NCBI GenBank assembly: GCA_016125455.1
Contig: WGLS01000001.1
Span: forward strand, 558,001-622,000
From: Alphaproteobacteria bacterium
GTDB taxonomy: Bacteria > Pseudomonadota > Alphaproteobacteria > Caulobacterales > Parvularculaceae
Direction of reading: 5' to 3'
Length of the DNA stretch: 64,000 bases
Position numbers and translations under genes: made by a program. Below the pieces are notes generated by a model. That model was given only the letters and a program-made list of their open reading frames with translations. It was not told where the DNA came from and did no database searches. Positions within the stretch are counted from its first letter, which is position 1; every line of letters starts with the position of its first letter. This document shows, piece by piece, positions 47,458 to 52,465 of the stretch.

Positions 47458-48705
47458 CTACCCGCTGACGAGGCTTGAATATATGGCGAGCATTTTTCTC
47501 GCCTTGGCCGACCAGCTGAAGTTTTGTTCTGCGCGCAGCCTTGCCGCATAGCCCATTGTCTCGGCGAGCGATGGATTGGCGCCCATTCTCGACATGGCCG
47601 CGGCAAAGCCTTCGACCATCGCCGTGCGACTTTCCGGCTTCACCAGGATTCCTGTTTCAGGCGTAATGTAGTCCTCCGGCCCGCCCCAGGCGGTCGCGAT
47701 TGCAGGCCGGGCGCAAGCGAAGGCTTCCAGCACCACAGCGCCTCCGCATTCGTACAAGGACGATAGGACCAGCGCCGTTGCATCGTGCAATGCGTCGCGG
47801 ATTTGCGGCTGAGGGAGAAATCCGGTGAACGAAACGCGGTCGGCGACCCCGAGTTCAACTGACAGCCTTTCGAGGAATGCGCGCTCCGGCCCATCGCCGA
47901 CAATTGAAAGACGCGCATGGCCGTCAACTCTTGCGAAGGCTTCAAGCAGGATGTCCACCGCCTTCCACTTGATCAGCCTGCCAACGAAAACGAAATGTAG
48001 TCTGGTCGGGGGCGGTTTCGCCGCTGGCGTCCAGAGATTGAGATCGACGCCGTTTTCGACGAGGATTCCAACATCCGTCGCGCCTGTTGCCTGATGCAGC
48101 GCATTGCGCGTCCTTGCGTTGGCGGCAAGCAATCGAACGGCGTTGCGCTTCCCCGCAAAGACCTTGTTTCCAAGCCTGGCGAACCGCCTGCCAGCTGCAA
48201 CGACCGCGGGCGCGCCGCCGCCATAGTCGCGTTCGAACGCTGGCGGATAATTCATGCCGCCGTTCATTGGGCCAATAACGACTGGTGCGCCGAGGTCGTC
48301 GAGCGGGCTCGGCATCTGCGGCGATACTGGCGTAGGTTGGTGCACGATCTGGACGTCAAGGCGTTGGACGAGCGACTTCGCTTCTGATCTCAGTCGCTCC
48401 ATTGTCAGGAGGCCAAGCGCCATGCCGAAGGTCGCGTCGCTGAGGGAAGCGGGGACAAGACGCCCGGTCCGGTAGATCAGCCTTTCGGCCGAGCTGTCCT
48501 CAACAAAATGGATGCGTGATGGATCGAGCGATGGTTCCGCCTCGAGCTCTTCGCGCACGCGCGCATGCGTCAGTGCGTGCGCCTCAACGCCAAGCGCGGA
48601 AAGTTCGCGCACATAGTGAAACGGGATAACGGCCTCGCCGCCCATCCGTCGCGAGATGTTCGGCGCCACGATCAGCACCCGCATATTTTCCGGCTCCGCC
48701 GCCAT
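47458..48705 (-). CDS. Glycosyltransferase (GT4-type, GT-B fold)
   Basis: A 415-residue retaining glycosyltransferase. The C-terminal half has FVFVGRLIKWKAVDILLEAF and the nucleotide-sugar EX7E motif ECGGAVVLE, followed by FACARPAIATAWGGPEDYI. The N-terminal half (PNISRRMGGEAVIPFHYVREL) binds the acceptor. ATG at 48705 was chosen; TTG at 48738 overlaps the exosortase stop. The partnership with an exosortase/EpsI gene points to exopolysaccharide synthesis. The sugar is unknown. Confidence 0.88.
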   Translation of the reverse strand: MAAEPENMRVLIVAPNISRRMGGEAVIPFHYVRELSALGVEAHALTHARVREELEAEPSLDPSRIHFVEDSSAERLIYRTGRLVPASLSDATFGMALGLLTMERLRSEAKSLVQRLDVQIVHQPTPVSPQMPSPLDDLGAPVVIGPMNGGMNYPPAFERDYGGGAPAVVAAGRRFARLGNKVFAGKRNAVRLLAANARTRNALHQATGATDVGILVENGVDLNLWTPAAKPPPTRLHFVFVGRLIKWKAVDILLEAFARVDGHARLSIVGDGPERAFLERLSVELGVADRVSFTGFLPQPQIRDALHDATALVLSSLYECGGAVVLEAFACARPAIATAWGGPEDYITPETGILVKPESRTAMVEGFAAAMSRMGANPSLAETMGYAARLRAEQNFSWSAKARKMLAIYSSLVSG

Positions 48706-48734
48706 TCGTGTGTCGCCGCCTGCCGGAAACGCAA

Positions 48735-50309
48735 TCAATGGGGCACGTACGCGGGGAGAATGCCTTGAACGTCCAGCAATGTCCGGCTCAGGAACTTTTC
48801 GGCGTCCTCAATGCTCTCGTCTTCGTTGACGATGGTCATCAGGCGCACCATTGCCCCGTCAGAACGATTGCGGATGACCGCGTCATGGATGAGCCAGAAC
48901 TTCATGACGAATTCGTTGGCGATCTTTCTGCCGCGCTGGTCATAGTAGTAGTAGACGAGCTGGCGGACGCCGCGGTTCTCGATGATCATCCGGTTGTAGT
49001 GATACTTCGATCCATCCGGCGCGAGGCCCTCCTGCACGGAACGGTCCGTGATTTGCCAGCCGCCGCCTGGTATGCACTGCCGCGGACTATGCCATGACCG
49101 GCCGTCCCGCTGCGCTTCCAGATACGCAATATAAAGGTTGAATGCCGACTCTTCTGGCCTGGCGACATCGACGACGATGGCGTCATCCGCACCAAGTGTT
49201 TCGGCGACCTCGGGATCAATTGGGCGCACCATCGTGACCGCGTCGCCAAACTCCGCCGGCAGTGCAGCGAATGGCGTTCGGTCCGGAATGGTGAGGGCGT
49301 CGATCTTGATGACCTGGCTAAGTCCGAGCGCAGCTGCAAAGACGGCCGCCATCGCCAGCGCCGCGGGGACGGGTTGCGATGTCCGGCTGCTCGGCGTGAC
49401 GGTCGGCAAATCGGGCGTTGCAAGGGAATTGAACGCGGTATCGCGGGGCGTCTTCAGCCGCGCGAGGATCGCAACGACGGCGAACAATTCGACAAGGCAA
49501 AGCGCAAAAACGACCCAACCTTCGAAGAAGTGCAATGCGCCTTCCGCATGCTGTGTGCCGTACGCCTGAACGAGCGCGCCGGTGACGGCGATCCGAAAGC
49601 TGTTCATCAGGATTGTAATCGGCACTGTCGCTGCGGCGATGGCGATCCGGTGCCACATCGGACCGCGATAAATGTAGCCGGCCATCACGCCAATCGACAG
49701 AAACGGGAACAGGTACCTAAGGCCGCTGCAGGCTTCGGCGACCTGTAGCTTGTAATCGCCGAGATCGATGATGTTGCCTTGCAGGAATACCGGGATGTTC
49801 ATCGCCTCGATCATCGCTACGCCGAGTATCGAAGACCATTCCTGGAAATTCCACGAAAGGACCGTGATCACCCAGAAGGGCGGCGGCACGGCGAAAAAAA
49901 GGAAGGCGATTGGCGCCGCGAGGCACCTCAGCAGCGAAACGCCGCCAAACGCCGCAACGACGCTCGCAATGGTGATGACGAGACCAAGCTGTTGGATGAG
50001 GTAGATGCTGCTAAGCCGCCCCGTGAGAAGGAATGCGAGCCCGACCGCCGCGATCGCGACGCCGGCGAAAGATGGCGCGCCGACGCTCGCCTTCACGGCC
50101 TGACGATTCTCCCAGATCAGCCAAGCAGACACGAGCGGAATAAAATAGCTGTGACTCAATTCGTCCTGGGCGCCCCAGCGGAAGAACAGATTCCCGATTG
50201 CGTCCCAGTAGAGGACTGCGCCGACGCCCATTGTCGCCAGTAGGGCCGCAATCATCGCCTTGCCGTCGTTCGACGTCATGTTGAATGTCATTCGTTCCGC
50301 GACGGTCAT
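48735..50309 (-). CDS. Exosortase fused to an EpsI domain
   Basis: A 524-residue inner-membrane transpeptidase-like protein. About eight helices form the exosortase core with catalytic C194 (EACSGLRYL), R239 (NSFRI) and H260 (ALHFFEGW). A periplasmic EpsI domain follows (about 330-520), including HSPRQCIPGGGWQI (407-420). Exosortases cut and anchor proteins with a C-terminal PEP-CTERM-type signal; the fused form resembles XrtD/XrtE groups of alphaproteobacteria. No PEP-CTERM substrate is in this window. The ATG overlaps a preceding short frame by four bases (ATGA at 50306-50309). Confidence 0.9.
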   Translation of the reverse strand: MTVAERMTFNMTSNDGKAMIAALLATMGVGAVLYWDAIGNLFFRWGAQDELSHSYFIPLVSAWLIWENRQAVKASVGAPSFAGVAIAAVGLAFLLTGRLSSIYLIQQLGLVITIASVVAAFGGVSLLRCLAAPIAFLFFAVPPPFWVITVLSWNFQEWSSILGVAMIEAMNIPVFLQGNIIDLGDYKLQVAEACSGLRYLFPFLSIGVMAGYIYRGPMWHRIAIAAATVPITILMNSFRIAVTGALVQAYGTQHAEGALHFFEGWVVFALCLVELFAVVAILARLKTPRDTAFNSLATPDLPTVTPSSRTSQPVPAALAMAAVFAAALGLSQVIKIDALTIPDRTPFAALPAEFGDAVTMVRPIDPEVAETLGADDAIVVDVARPEESAFNLYIAYLEAQRDGRSWHSPRQCIPGGGWQITDRSVQEGLAPDGSKYHYNRMIIENRGVRQLVYYYYDQRGRKIANEFVMKFWLIHDAVIRNRSDGAMVRLMTIVNEDESIEDAEKFLSRTLLDVQGILPAYVPH

Positions 50310-50731: not shown

Positions 50732-51439
50732 TCATCGCGCCTCGATTTCCTCGACCTCGTTGGCGCAGGGCTTCTGCGTCACGGTCGGGCCAGTACCGGT
50801 CGCCGCCGTCCGAAGGGGCGGCGGCCGACGGGTCGCCGATGGCGCGATCCGCGGTGTCGGCGGCCTCGACGACGACTGGATATGCCTGACGTTTTCGATC
50901 CCTGAAGATGTCTCGGTTGAGCCAGCCGTAGGGGACCGCGTCGGCGAGACAGGTTCTGCGGCGTGCGGCCCGCCGTAGGCGCCGCTGACTGTCCCGGCGG
51001 GGCTCATCACTTCTGTCGGCATGCCGAGGCGCATTACCTGCAGTTCCATTTTCAGGCGCGCGATTTCCAGCTCATACAGCGATGAGCAGTCGATCCTTTC
51101 GGGCCGCTTGCCGAGCGGCATCACGACCCGTCCGTAGACGGCATTGGTCTGCCTGTTGAACACATCATCGGAACTGATGACGCCGACGTCGAGATAGGGC
51201 CCGCTTGAGGCAACTGACGACTGACAAGTCACGCCGCTGGCGCTTCGCACAATATCCTGACCATACGGCGTTGGCGCCGCCGGCAGGCTGACGCTGTTCT
51301 GGTTGAATATGGAGCTTTGCGACGGCGGAATGTAGCCGACCGGATAGATCCCCTGGTCTTGCGCCTCGACTGTCCCTGCAAGTGTCAACGACGCCGTGAG
51401 GGTCGCTATTGCAAGCGGTGCGCAACGTATTTCCCGCAT
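50732..51439 (-). CDS. Exported protein C of a three-gene operon
   Basis: A 235-residue protein with a signal peptide (about 1-27, ending VEAQ). The mature part begins DQGIYPVGYIPPSQSSIFNQN. A core with Cys residues (SGVTCQSS, ERIDCSSLYELEIARLKMEL) and NAVYGRVVMPLGKRPERIDC may be a small beta domain followed by an amphipathic helix; the last 75 residues are Pro/Ser/Thr-rich and look like a flexible surface tail. It is the third gene of an operon, overlapping the second by 34 bases. I do not recognise a named family. Confidence 0.72.
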   Translation of the reverse strand: MREIRCAPLAIATLTASLTLAGTVEAQDQGIYPVGYIPPSQSSIFNQNSVSLPAAPTPYGQDIVRSASGVTCQSSVASSGPYLDVGVISSDDVFNRQTNAVYGRVVMPLGKRPERIDCSSLYELEIARLKMELQVMRLGMPTEVMSPAGTVSGAYGGPHAAEPVSPTRSPTAGSTETSSGIENVRHIQSSSRPPTPRIAPSATRRPPPLRTAATGTGPTVTQKPCANEVEEIEAR

Positions 51440-51807
51440 ACCTGCCCCTTGATCGTCCGGCCGTTGCCCGATGCAATTGCGCTTGCGGCGCAAATGTAGA
51501 CCCGCCGCCGTTGGCTATCCGCAAACGGCACCAGTGCGGTGACTGCCCGTCGTTCTCCCGCGCCGATAAGGTACTCCGCCGGGAGCGCGCGGGCGCCCTG
51601 AACTGGCCGCCAATCCTCATCAAAAATCTCGACATTCTGCCGCGTCGCGACGGTATACGGATTATATGCCGTCAGCGTGATCAGGAACGCTTCGCCGAAT
51701 GACGCGAATTCTCCCTTCATCGGCGACAGCGACTGGGCAGGCGCCGGCGTAAAGGTCGCCTGCGCCGCTATTGCGGCCATGATGAAAACGGTCAGGACGA
51801 GACGCAT
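51406..51807 (-). CDS. Exported protein B of a three-gene operon (Ig-like, chaperone-like)
   Basis: A 133-residue protein with a signal peptide (about 1-25, ending APAQ). The mature part reads as a single beta-sandwich: FLITLTAYNPYTVATRQNVE, then IFDEDWRPVQG, and RRAVTALVPFADSQRRRVYI, ending with CGKYVAH. The NPY/DxxW pattern recalls adhesin- or fimbria-associated Ig-like domains and periplasmic chaperones, but no classic chaperone signature is present. Overlaps with both neighbours (16 bases upstream, 34 downstream) imply strict co-expression. Confidence 0.72.
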   Translation of the reverse strand: MRLVLTVFIMAAIAAQATFTPAPAQSLSPMKGEFASFGEAFLITLTAYNPYTVATRQNVEIFDEDWRPVQGARALPAEYLIGAGERRAVTALVPFADSQRRRVYICAASAIASGNGRTIKGQVCGKYVAHRLQ

Positions 51808-52304
51808 CGGATTGTCGTCTGCAATTGATAGGCGCCGGCGGGAAACGCGCCGCTTGATTTTATGGCCGCTGCGTCGACGGTGGCGAATGTGATGCCGAAA
51901 CCAAGCGGCGAGCCGACGCCAGCGAGGATGTCGGAAAGAATCGTGACCCCGGCGAGGGAATAGTCGACTGAAAAGGAAACGTTGGTTCCGCCACCGGTCG
52001 GCTCGACTGAAAAAGCGGAAGCTGGGTCGACCTGGACCTCGAAGTTCGTGCTTGTGGTCGTCAACGTCGCGAGGGCGGGCGACCCGCCTGTCTCCTGCGA
52101 GGACAACTCGGTATTGGTCGCGTTAGGCGCGAGCACGCCAGGGGTGGTAATAAGCAGAATGCAGGCGTCGGGGATCAGCCCGTTAAAAATCAGGCTGCCT
52201 GAACCCTGCGCCTGGGCGGCAGGCGGCGCCGCCGCCGCGAAAGCAGCTGCGGTAGCCAATAAACGCGCCGGCAATCTGCGTTGCGCTCGTCGGGTCATCT
52301 TCAA
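51792..52304 (-). CDS. Exported protein A of a three-gene operon (pilin/spore-coat-U-like)
   Basis: A 170-residue protein with a signal peptide (about 1-33). The mature part is Ser/Thr/Gly-rich with strands (SGSLIFNGLIPDACILL, then TTTSTNFEVQVDPASAFSV) and ends FPAGAYQLQTTIRCVSS. A Cys near 48 and another three residues from the end could form a disulfide. The Gly-Ala-Tyr-x-x-x-Thr-(Ile)-x-Cys ending resembles pilin-like beta-sandwiches such as spore coat U or chaperone-usher subunits. It is first in the operon. No usher gene is present. Confidence 0.72.
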   Translation of the reverse strand: MKMTRRAQRRLPARLLATAAAFAAAAPPAAQAQGSGSLIFNGLIPDACILLITTPGVLAPNATNTELSSQETGGSPALATLTTTSTNFEVQVDPASAFSVEPTGGGTNVSFSVDYSLAGVTILSDILAGVGSPLGFGITFATVDAAAIKSSGAFPAGAYQLQTTIRCVSS

Positions 52305-52432: not shown

Positions 52433-52465
52433 CAAAAAAATGGGCGGTCAAAAGACCGCCCATTC
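52433..52465 (-). terminator. Rho-independent terminator of groESL
   Basis: On the minus strand an 11-bp perfect stem (52454-52464 with 52439-52449) with loop TTTT is followed by seven T (complement of 52434-52440). It lies 34 bases after the groEL stop. Confidence 0.95.

Follow-up and report, generated by a model that had tools for sequence, protein, structure and literature searches.

A conserved, unnamed three-gene unit of bacteria, plasmids and marine phages with a predicted pilin-type subunit, a chaperone-like partner and no usher

Three overlapping genes for exported proteins, here termed P1, P2 and P3, form a real, conserved and unnamed unit with an unusual carriage by phages. The triplet was analyzed in a 3.6-Mb genome from a GTDB family that includes Parvularcula-type genomes, starting from a window of 64,000 nt (the whole stretch of DNA read). 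Gene order is conserved among relatives, P1 has a predicted pilin fold, P2 bears a remote likeness to PapD_N chaperones, and no usher was found in the genome. We lean towards a minimal, mobile, usher-less chaperone-pilin system that would build a donor-strand fiber anchored by P3. A literature search returned no description of the P1-P2-P3 trio.

Organization of the triplet

The triplet lies downstream of groEL (Table 1). A sequence-only reading of the window had described three genes overlapping by 16 and 34 nt, with signal peptides, Cys-bearing domains and, for the third product, a tail rich in Pro, Ser and Thr, and these coordinates and features were borne out. A signal-peptide-like N-terminal segment was read by eye on each protein, and each has one conserved Cys pair (P1 C48/C167, P2 C106/C124, P3 C72/C118). 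Translation of P1 probably begins at ATG 52298, two codons downstream of TTG 52304. Starting P3 at TTG 51493, as in the mechanically called ORF, makes it too long, since its relatives begin at the ATG equivalent to 51439. The equivalent of the P2/P3 overlap is 31–40 nt in most of those bacterial relatives in which the longest ORF begins at the conserved ATG. The terminator-like stem-loop and T tract behind groEL, absent from the listing of a consensus terminator scan, suggests that the triplet is set apart from groEL as its own transcription unit. Atypical GC content was ruled out, the triplet (0.629) equaling the window mean.

Table 1. Positions of the triplet, its parts and nearby features in the window
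Feature	Position	Strand	Basis
P1, exported subunit resembling pilins, 170 aa if begun at TTG 52304	51792-52304	minus	AF2 model and Foldseek
P1 residues 33-47, QGSGSLIFNGLIPDA, the N-terminal extension preceding Cys48 and a candidate donor strand	52164-52208	minus	AF2 model and motif
P1 predicted beta-sandwich, residues 48-169, containing C48 and C167	51798-52163	minus	AF2 strands; pilin-domain alignment
P1/P2 overlap, 16 nt	51792-51807	minus	common to 29/49 loci, bacterial and viral
P2, exported protein of 133 aa with one Ig-like, PapD_N-like domain	51406-51807	minus	hhalign to PapD_N chaperones
P2/P3 overlap, 34 nt	51406-51439	minus	ORF coordinates and overlaps in relatives
P3, third exported protein, 235 aa	50732-51439	minus	alignments of relatives
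P3 conserved core, residues 35-140	51020-51337	minus	alignments; secondary structure from low-confidence model
P3 variable Pro/Ser/Thr-rich tail	50735-51019	minus	comparison of relatives
Stem-loop and T tract, groEL terminator-like: GGGCGGTC-TTTT-GACCGCCC, then T7	52433-52463	minus	direct reading
XrtD, VPLPA-CTERM-specific exosortase with fused EpsI domain	48735-50309	minus	TIGR04152, 486 bits
GT4 glycosyltransferase gene, overlapping the XrtD gene	47458-48738	minus	

No Pfam or NCBIfam model reached its cut-off for P1, P2 or P3, in keeping with the initial statement that their families are unrecognized. Scans of P1 and P2 against Pfam, NCBIfam and PHROGs gave chance matches only, and the match of P3 in PHROGs was phrog_37374, a family of unknown function. 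The triplet proteins matched neither the Fimbrial, SCPU and PapD_N family models nor the CsgG, CsgF and curlin families.

P1 has a predicted pilin-type fold

An AF2 model of P1 built from 34 sequences (pLDDT 86.3) contains a beta-sandwich at residues 48–169, with residues 33–47 lying outside the sheet. Most P1 relatives carry the pattern h-x-F-x-G-x-h before the Cys, the same alternation as in FimA 'TVHFKGEV'. When the model was searched against the PDB with Foldseek, chaperone-usher pilins or adhesin pilin domains occupied 45 of the 50 top rows (counted by hand), bearing out the earlier pilin-type call for the first gene. The best match was CfaB (E 4e-4, prob 1.00); further matches included Caf1, FimF/A/G, PapA/E/H and CsuA/B. 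By VIA, P1 residues 43–170 matched pilin domains at Z ∼6, a score that ties with carbohydrate-binding modules, other sandwiches and archaeal cannula subunits, the top match being the cannula protein CanA (Z 7.1); the fold call therefore rests on the Foldseek ranking and on sequence logic. The N terminus of the P1 profile weakly matched a type-1-pilin-like chain in the PDB (E 0.0016), and hhalign detected no match between P1 and SCPU. The PDB entry 10ss_a is named 'Ferrous iron transporter B' and has a type-1-pilin-like N terminus (14 chains); its name is apparently wrong. By prediction from the model, P1 is a pilin-type protein with an incomplete Ig fold and an N-terminal donor extension. Its signal segment ends AAQAQGSG and has no lipobox Cys.

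Some loci encode more than one pilin-like protein. Rhizobiales-type loci have the order P1a-P2-P3-P1b, with two pilins flanking P2-P3. P1b starts approximately five residues before its Cys and thus lacks the N-terminal extension, as would be expected for a tip versus a shaft subunit. At diverged gamma-type loci, P2-P3 precede pilin-like genes, identified by eye, that the P1 model leaves unscored; at one such locus (L124:4947-5929) two follow P2-P3, one with and one without the extension, and the model scores neither. A Vibrio nigripulchritudo plasmid encodes a 262-aa exported two-part protein (L061:6766-7554) with the look of an adhesin joined to a pilin; the P1-like match of its C terminus reached only E 0.38 and was not used. 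On the same plasmid, a P2 gene at L061:7547-7948 lies unannotated between annotated genes.

P2 resembles the first domain of PapD-type chaperones

The mature length of P2 (∼108 residues) leaves room for chaperone domain 1 alone, and from its sequence P2 appears to correspond to that domain of PapD only. Aligned by hhalign with six PapD_N proteins of relatives, the profile of all P2 proteins scored 77.8% and that of bacterial P2 92.8%, probabilities that are not database-calibrated. After removal of signal peptides the values were 84% for bacterial P2, 64.5% for all P2 and 1.7% for phage P2 alone, while the all-P2 profile, column-shuffled or reversed as a control, gave at most 0.4%. These alignments argue for the Ig-like or chaperone-like character first proposed for the second gene. 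We grade the likeness to the PapD_N first domain as moderate, and as weak for the phage copies alone, because phage P2 by itself went undetected after signal-peptide trimming. Against the PDB, the P2 profile returned insignificant matches only, two of them PapD-like: VAP-A and the chaperone DraB. In one relative (L043:9350-10609), P3 ends in a copy of the C-terminal segment of P2 (E 9e-9 to the P2 model).

P3 is a new protein

P3 is a new protein and the most conserved part of the trio, with a core of ∼100 residues and two invariant Cys. The core motifs run SSxxNQN..LP, GQD, Cys72 and YxR..PLG.RxxRxDC118..LYELE, followed by a predicted helix. An AF2 model from six sequences was poor (pLDDT 47). 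In three relatives the variable tail ends in a SPOR domain (PF05036, E down to 5e-10), a domain that binds septal peptidoglycan; P3 of the source genome lacks it, as do most P3 versions. The P3 profile did not match any of three usher-like ORFs located beside chaperone genes of relatives.

The triplet is conserved across chromosomes, plasmids and viruses

Loci were first found via P3, and at all 49 of them (18 bacterial chromosomes, two plasmids, Vibrio phages and uncultured viral contigs) P1 and P2 accompany it in the same order. Conserved co-occurrence across genomes, which the sequence-only reading had named as support for the triplet, was thus found; the occurrence on phages and plasmids had been missed. 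Searching with P2 retrieved relatives in five other genomes, each with adjoining P1 and P3. P3 profile searches were positive in 8/62 genomes of the family, 16/398 of the order and 10/398 of the phylum (each count including the source genome), and the triplet is therefore a scattered accessory trait.

On plasmids, tBLASTn with P3 found Mesorhizobium and Vibrio nigripulchritudo. Among phages, it found 180 Vibrio phage records, and a phage P2 query found 179; at least 179 records carry the triplet. The Vibrio phages examined fall into five or more unrelated groups, all with P1-P2-P3 in that order. IMG/VR contributed 18 further viral contigs with a bacterial-like P3 and four of Vibrio type; single proteins from Vibrio phages or Mesorhizobium, used as queries against viral sequences, yielded few or no additional loci. 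Bacterial and phage proteins align with each other by hhalign (P2 97.8%, E 1e-12; P1 98.2%, E 4e-14).

In three pairs of loci, dN/dS was 0.06–0.29 in seven of nine gene comparisons; in the remaining two, synonymous sites were saturated and pN/pS was 0.34–0.43. Gene order, dN/dS and the shared P1/P2 overlap place conservation of the triplet beyond chance. In a concatenated tree, copies from Caulobacterales join the Mesorhizobium plasmid copy and two more distant bacterial ones in a single clade, with the environmental viral contig L069 branching next to it; the Vibrio phages and the pelagic-type phages each make up a group of their own. Because the trio stays intact in scattered bacteria, plasmids and marine phages, it has the look of a mobile fiber-building kit.

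Bacterial and Vibrio phage neighborhoods

Beyond clade-level synteny, the 18 bacterial neighborhoods have only the triplet in common. The exosortase and glycosyltransferase genes had been taken to mark a surface-polymer neighborhood, and this idea did not survive comparison: XrtD is real, and the other 17 bacterial loci have no XrtD relative closer than 9 kb to the triplet. Only a GT4 homolog recurs, ∼1.9 kb from the triplet in three close relatives (L032, L036, L040), without XrtD. A link between exosortase and triplet was therefore rejected, and XrtD is, as far as the data show, a chance neighbor.

In five Vibrio phage groups the trio stands directly behind two homologous large fiber-like genes. 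This block of two fiber-like genes and P1-P2-P3 is common to otherwise unrelated phages (L062–L068, sampled in T5-like, Queuovirinae, 60-kb and 79–84-kb groups); most also have a small lipoprotein gene, which then follows the trio. Genes of the block are annotated 'hypothetical', and P3 is unannotated in D93 and D79. In T5-like phages the trio also lies near holin and endolysin genes, a proximity that is not general among phages.

Comparison with known fiber systems

The triplet shares several features with chaperone-usher pili (type 1, P, CFA/I, Caf1, Csu): the predicted beta-sandwich of P1 with an N-terminal extension of equal spacing, a PapD_N-like partner gene and, at some loci, paralogous pilins that differ in having or lacking the extension. 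It differs in having no usher, in the single domain of P2 (known chaperones have two), in the P1 Cys pair, which joins the first and last strands, in P3, which is unique to the triplet, in its carriage by many Vibrio phages and in the missing Pfam fimbrial or chaperone match. The absence of an usher noted in the initial reading extends genome-wide: PF00577 found none in this 96% complete genome, with a positive E. coli control. PapD_N and SCPU likewise had no match in the source genome, which thus has no standard PapD chaperone, and the triplet encodes no outer-membrane pore. The triplet would work like a chaperone-usher system yet is not a member of that class, since usher and two-domain chaperone were both looked for and are missing.

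Usher-free strand-exchange fibers exist in the type V pili of Bacteroidia, in TasA and in archaeal threads and cannulae. The VIA match to CanA is a point of likeness with such donor-strand polymers, from which the triplet differs in lineage and gene set, always including a chaperone-like gene and P3. Type V subunits are exported as lipoproteins, unlike P1. With curli the trio shares the format of an exported multi-gene cassette in marine phages and alphaproteobacteria, but it lacks CsgG, CsgF and curlin and has a pilin-type fold with no amyloid repeats. The triplet is neither curli nor a type V pilus; by analogy, it would be a pilin-based counterpart of the phage curli cassettes. For Gram-negative chaperone-type donor-strand pili an usher is thought necessary, and an usher-less set of pilin, one-domain chaperone and P3, shared by carriers as far apart as Parvularculaceae and Vibrio phages, would demonstrate another way of building a fiber.

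Proposed mechanism and alternatives

Under the favored reading, P1 would be exported by Sec as an incomplete Ig-type pilin whose N-terminal extension completes a neighboring P1, and P2 would cap P1 as a one-domain, PapD_N-like periplasmic chaperone. P3 would be the base that holds the growing fiber at the envelope, on peptidoglycan when SPOR is present, and may take over the usher's templating of assembly. The product would be a cell-surface or envelope fiber; that it polymerizes, that P2 caps P1, what P3 does, how the outer membrane is crossed and what the function is are all inferred. The Vibrio phage records make the trio a candidate phage surface-remodeling kit, which would be made late in infection and alter the host surface, with superinfection exclusion or cell capture as plausible roles. 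A bolder version, which we put forward tentatively and with some doubt, is a horizontally mobile and hitherto undescribed kind of pilus with P3 in the usher's place, carried by lytic marine phages to coat or bridge infected cells and so exclude superinfection or capture new hosts.

The position behind fiber-like genes in the five Vibrio phage groups, T5-like Demerecviridae and Queuovirinae among them, points to a different account, in which the trio forms no polymer and is a receptor-masking, adsorption-blocking envelope complex for superinfection exclusion, its bacterial copies being domesticated or plasmid-borne. In T5, llp adjoins its receptor-binding gene, and the Vibrio phage trio resembles this layout of envelope-directed genes beside fiber or receptor-binding genes; it differs from Llp in comprising three exported proteins rather than one lipoprotein, and in occurring also on chromosomes without phage genes. 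We consider this account unlikely. The gene upstream of the trio in pelagic-type contigs encodes an exported protein and no virion fiber, bacterial loci have no other conserved neighbor of the trio, and the predicted pilin fold, together with pilin pairs in which one member has the extension and the other lacks it, favors a polymer. If a polymer is formed, it could instead be a periplasmic fiber or scaffold that remains beneath the outer membrane, with P3 holding it to peptidoglycan. The SPOR domains of three relatives, the lack of an outer-membrane exit in the locus and of usher or CsgG in the genome, and the nearby lysis genes of T5-like phages are consistent with this, but most P3 versions have no SPOR and lysis-gene proximity is not general, and we rate it as decidedly improbable. 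A curli-like (type VIII) amyloid system has very little left to recommend it: P3 has an NQN-containing motif and pelagiphages are known with curli-type cassettes, for which 'sibling capture' or exclusion has been proposed (PMC7029224, PMC9599517), but CsgG (PF03783) is absent from the source genome, the trio has no curli family match and the P1 model is a pilin-type sandwich, so this alternative is strongly disfavored. Least probable is that three unrelated, ordinary periplasmic proteins merely overlap; the trio has no curated family, as this would allow, but the idea is refuted by co-occurrence at every locus on chromosomes, plasmids and viruses, with order and overlaps kept.

Genes beside the triplet in pelagic-type viral contigs

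In pelagic-type viral contigs (L070–L086), the exported protein encoded upstream of P1 has ∼290 aa (e.g., L077:1692-2570) and conserved motifs WVMxxxLP and DW.G.PG, with no match in Pfam or PHROGs. A protein with TM and coiled-coil segments is encoded downstream of P3 in such contigs (L077:3930-4409, L074:6688-7350).
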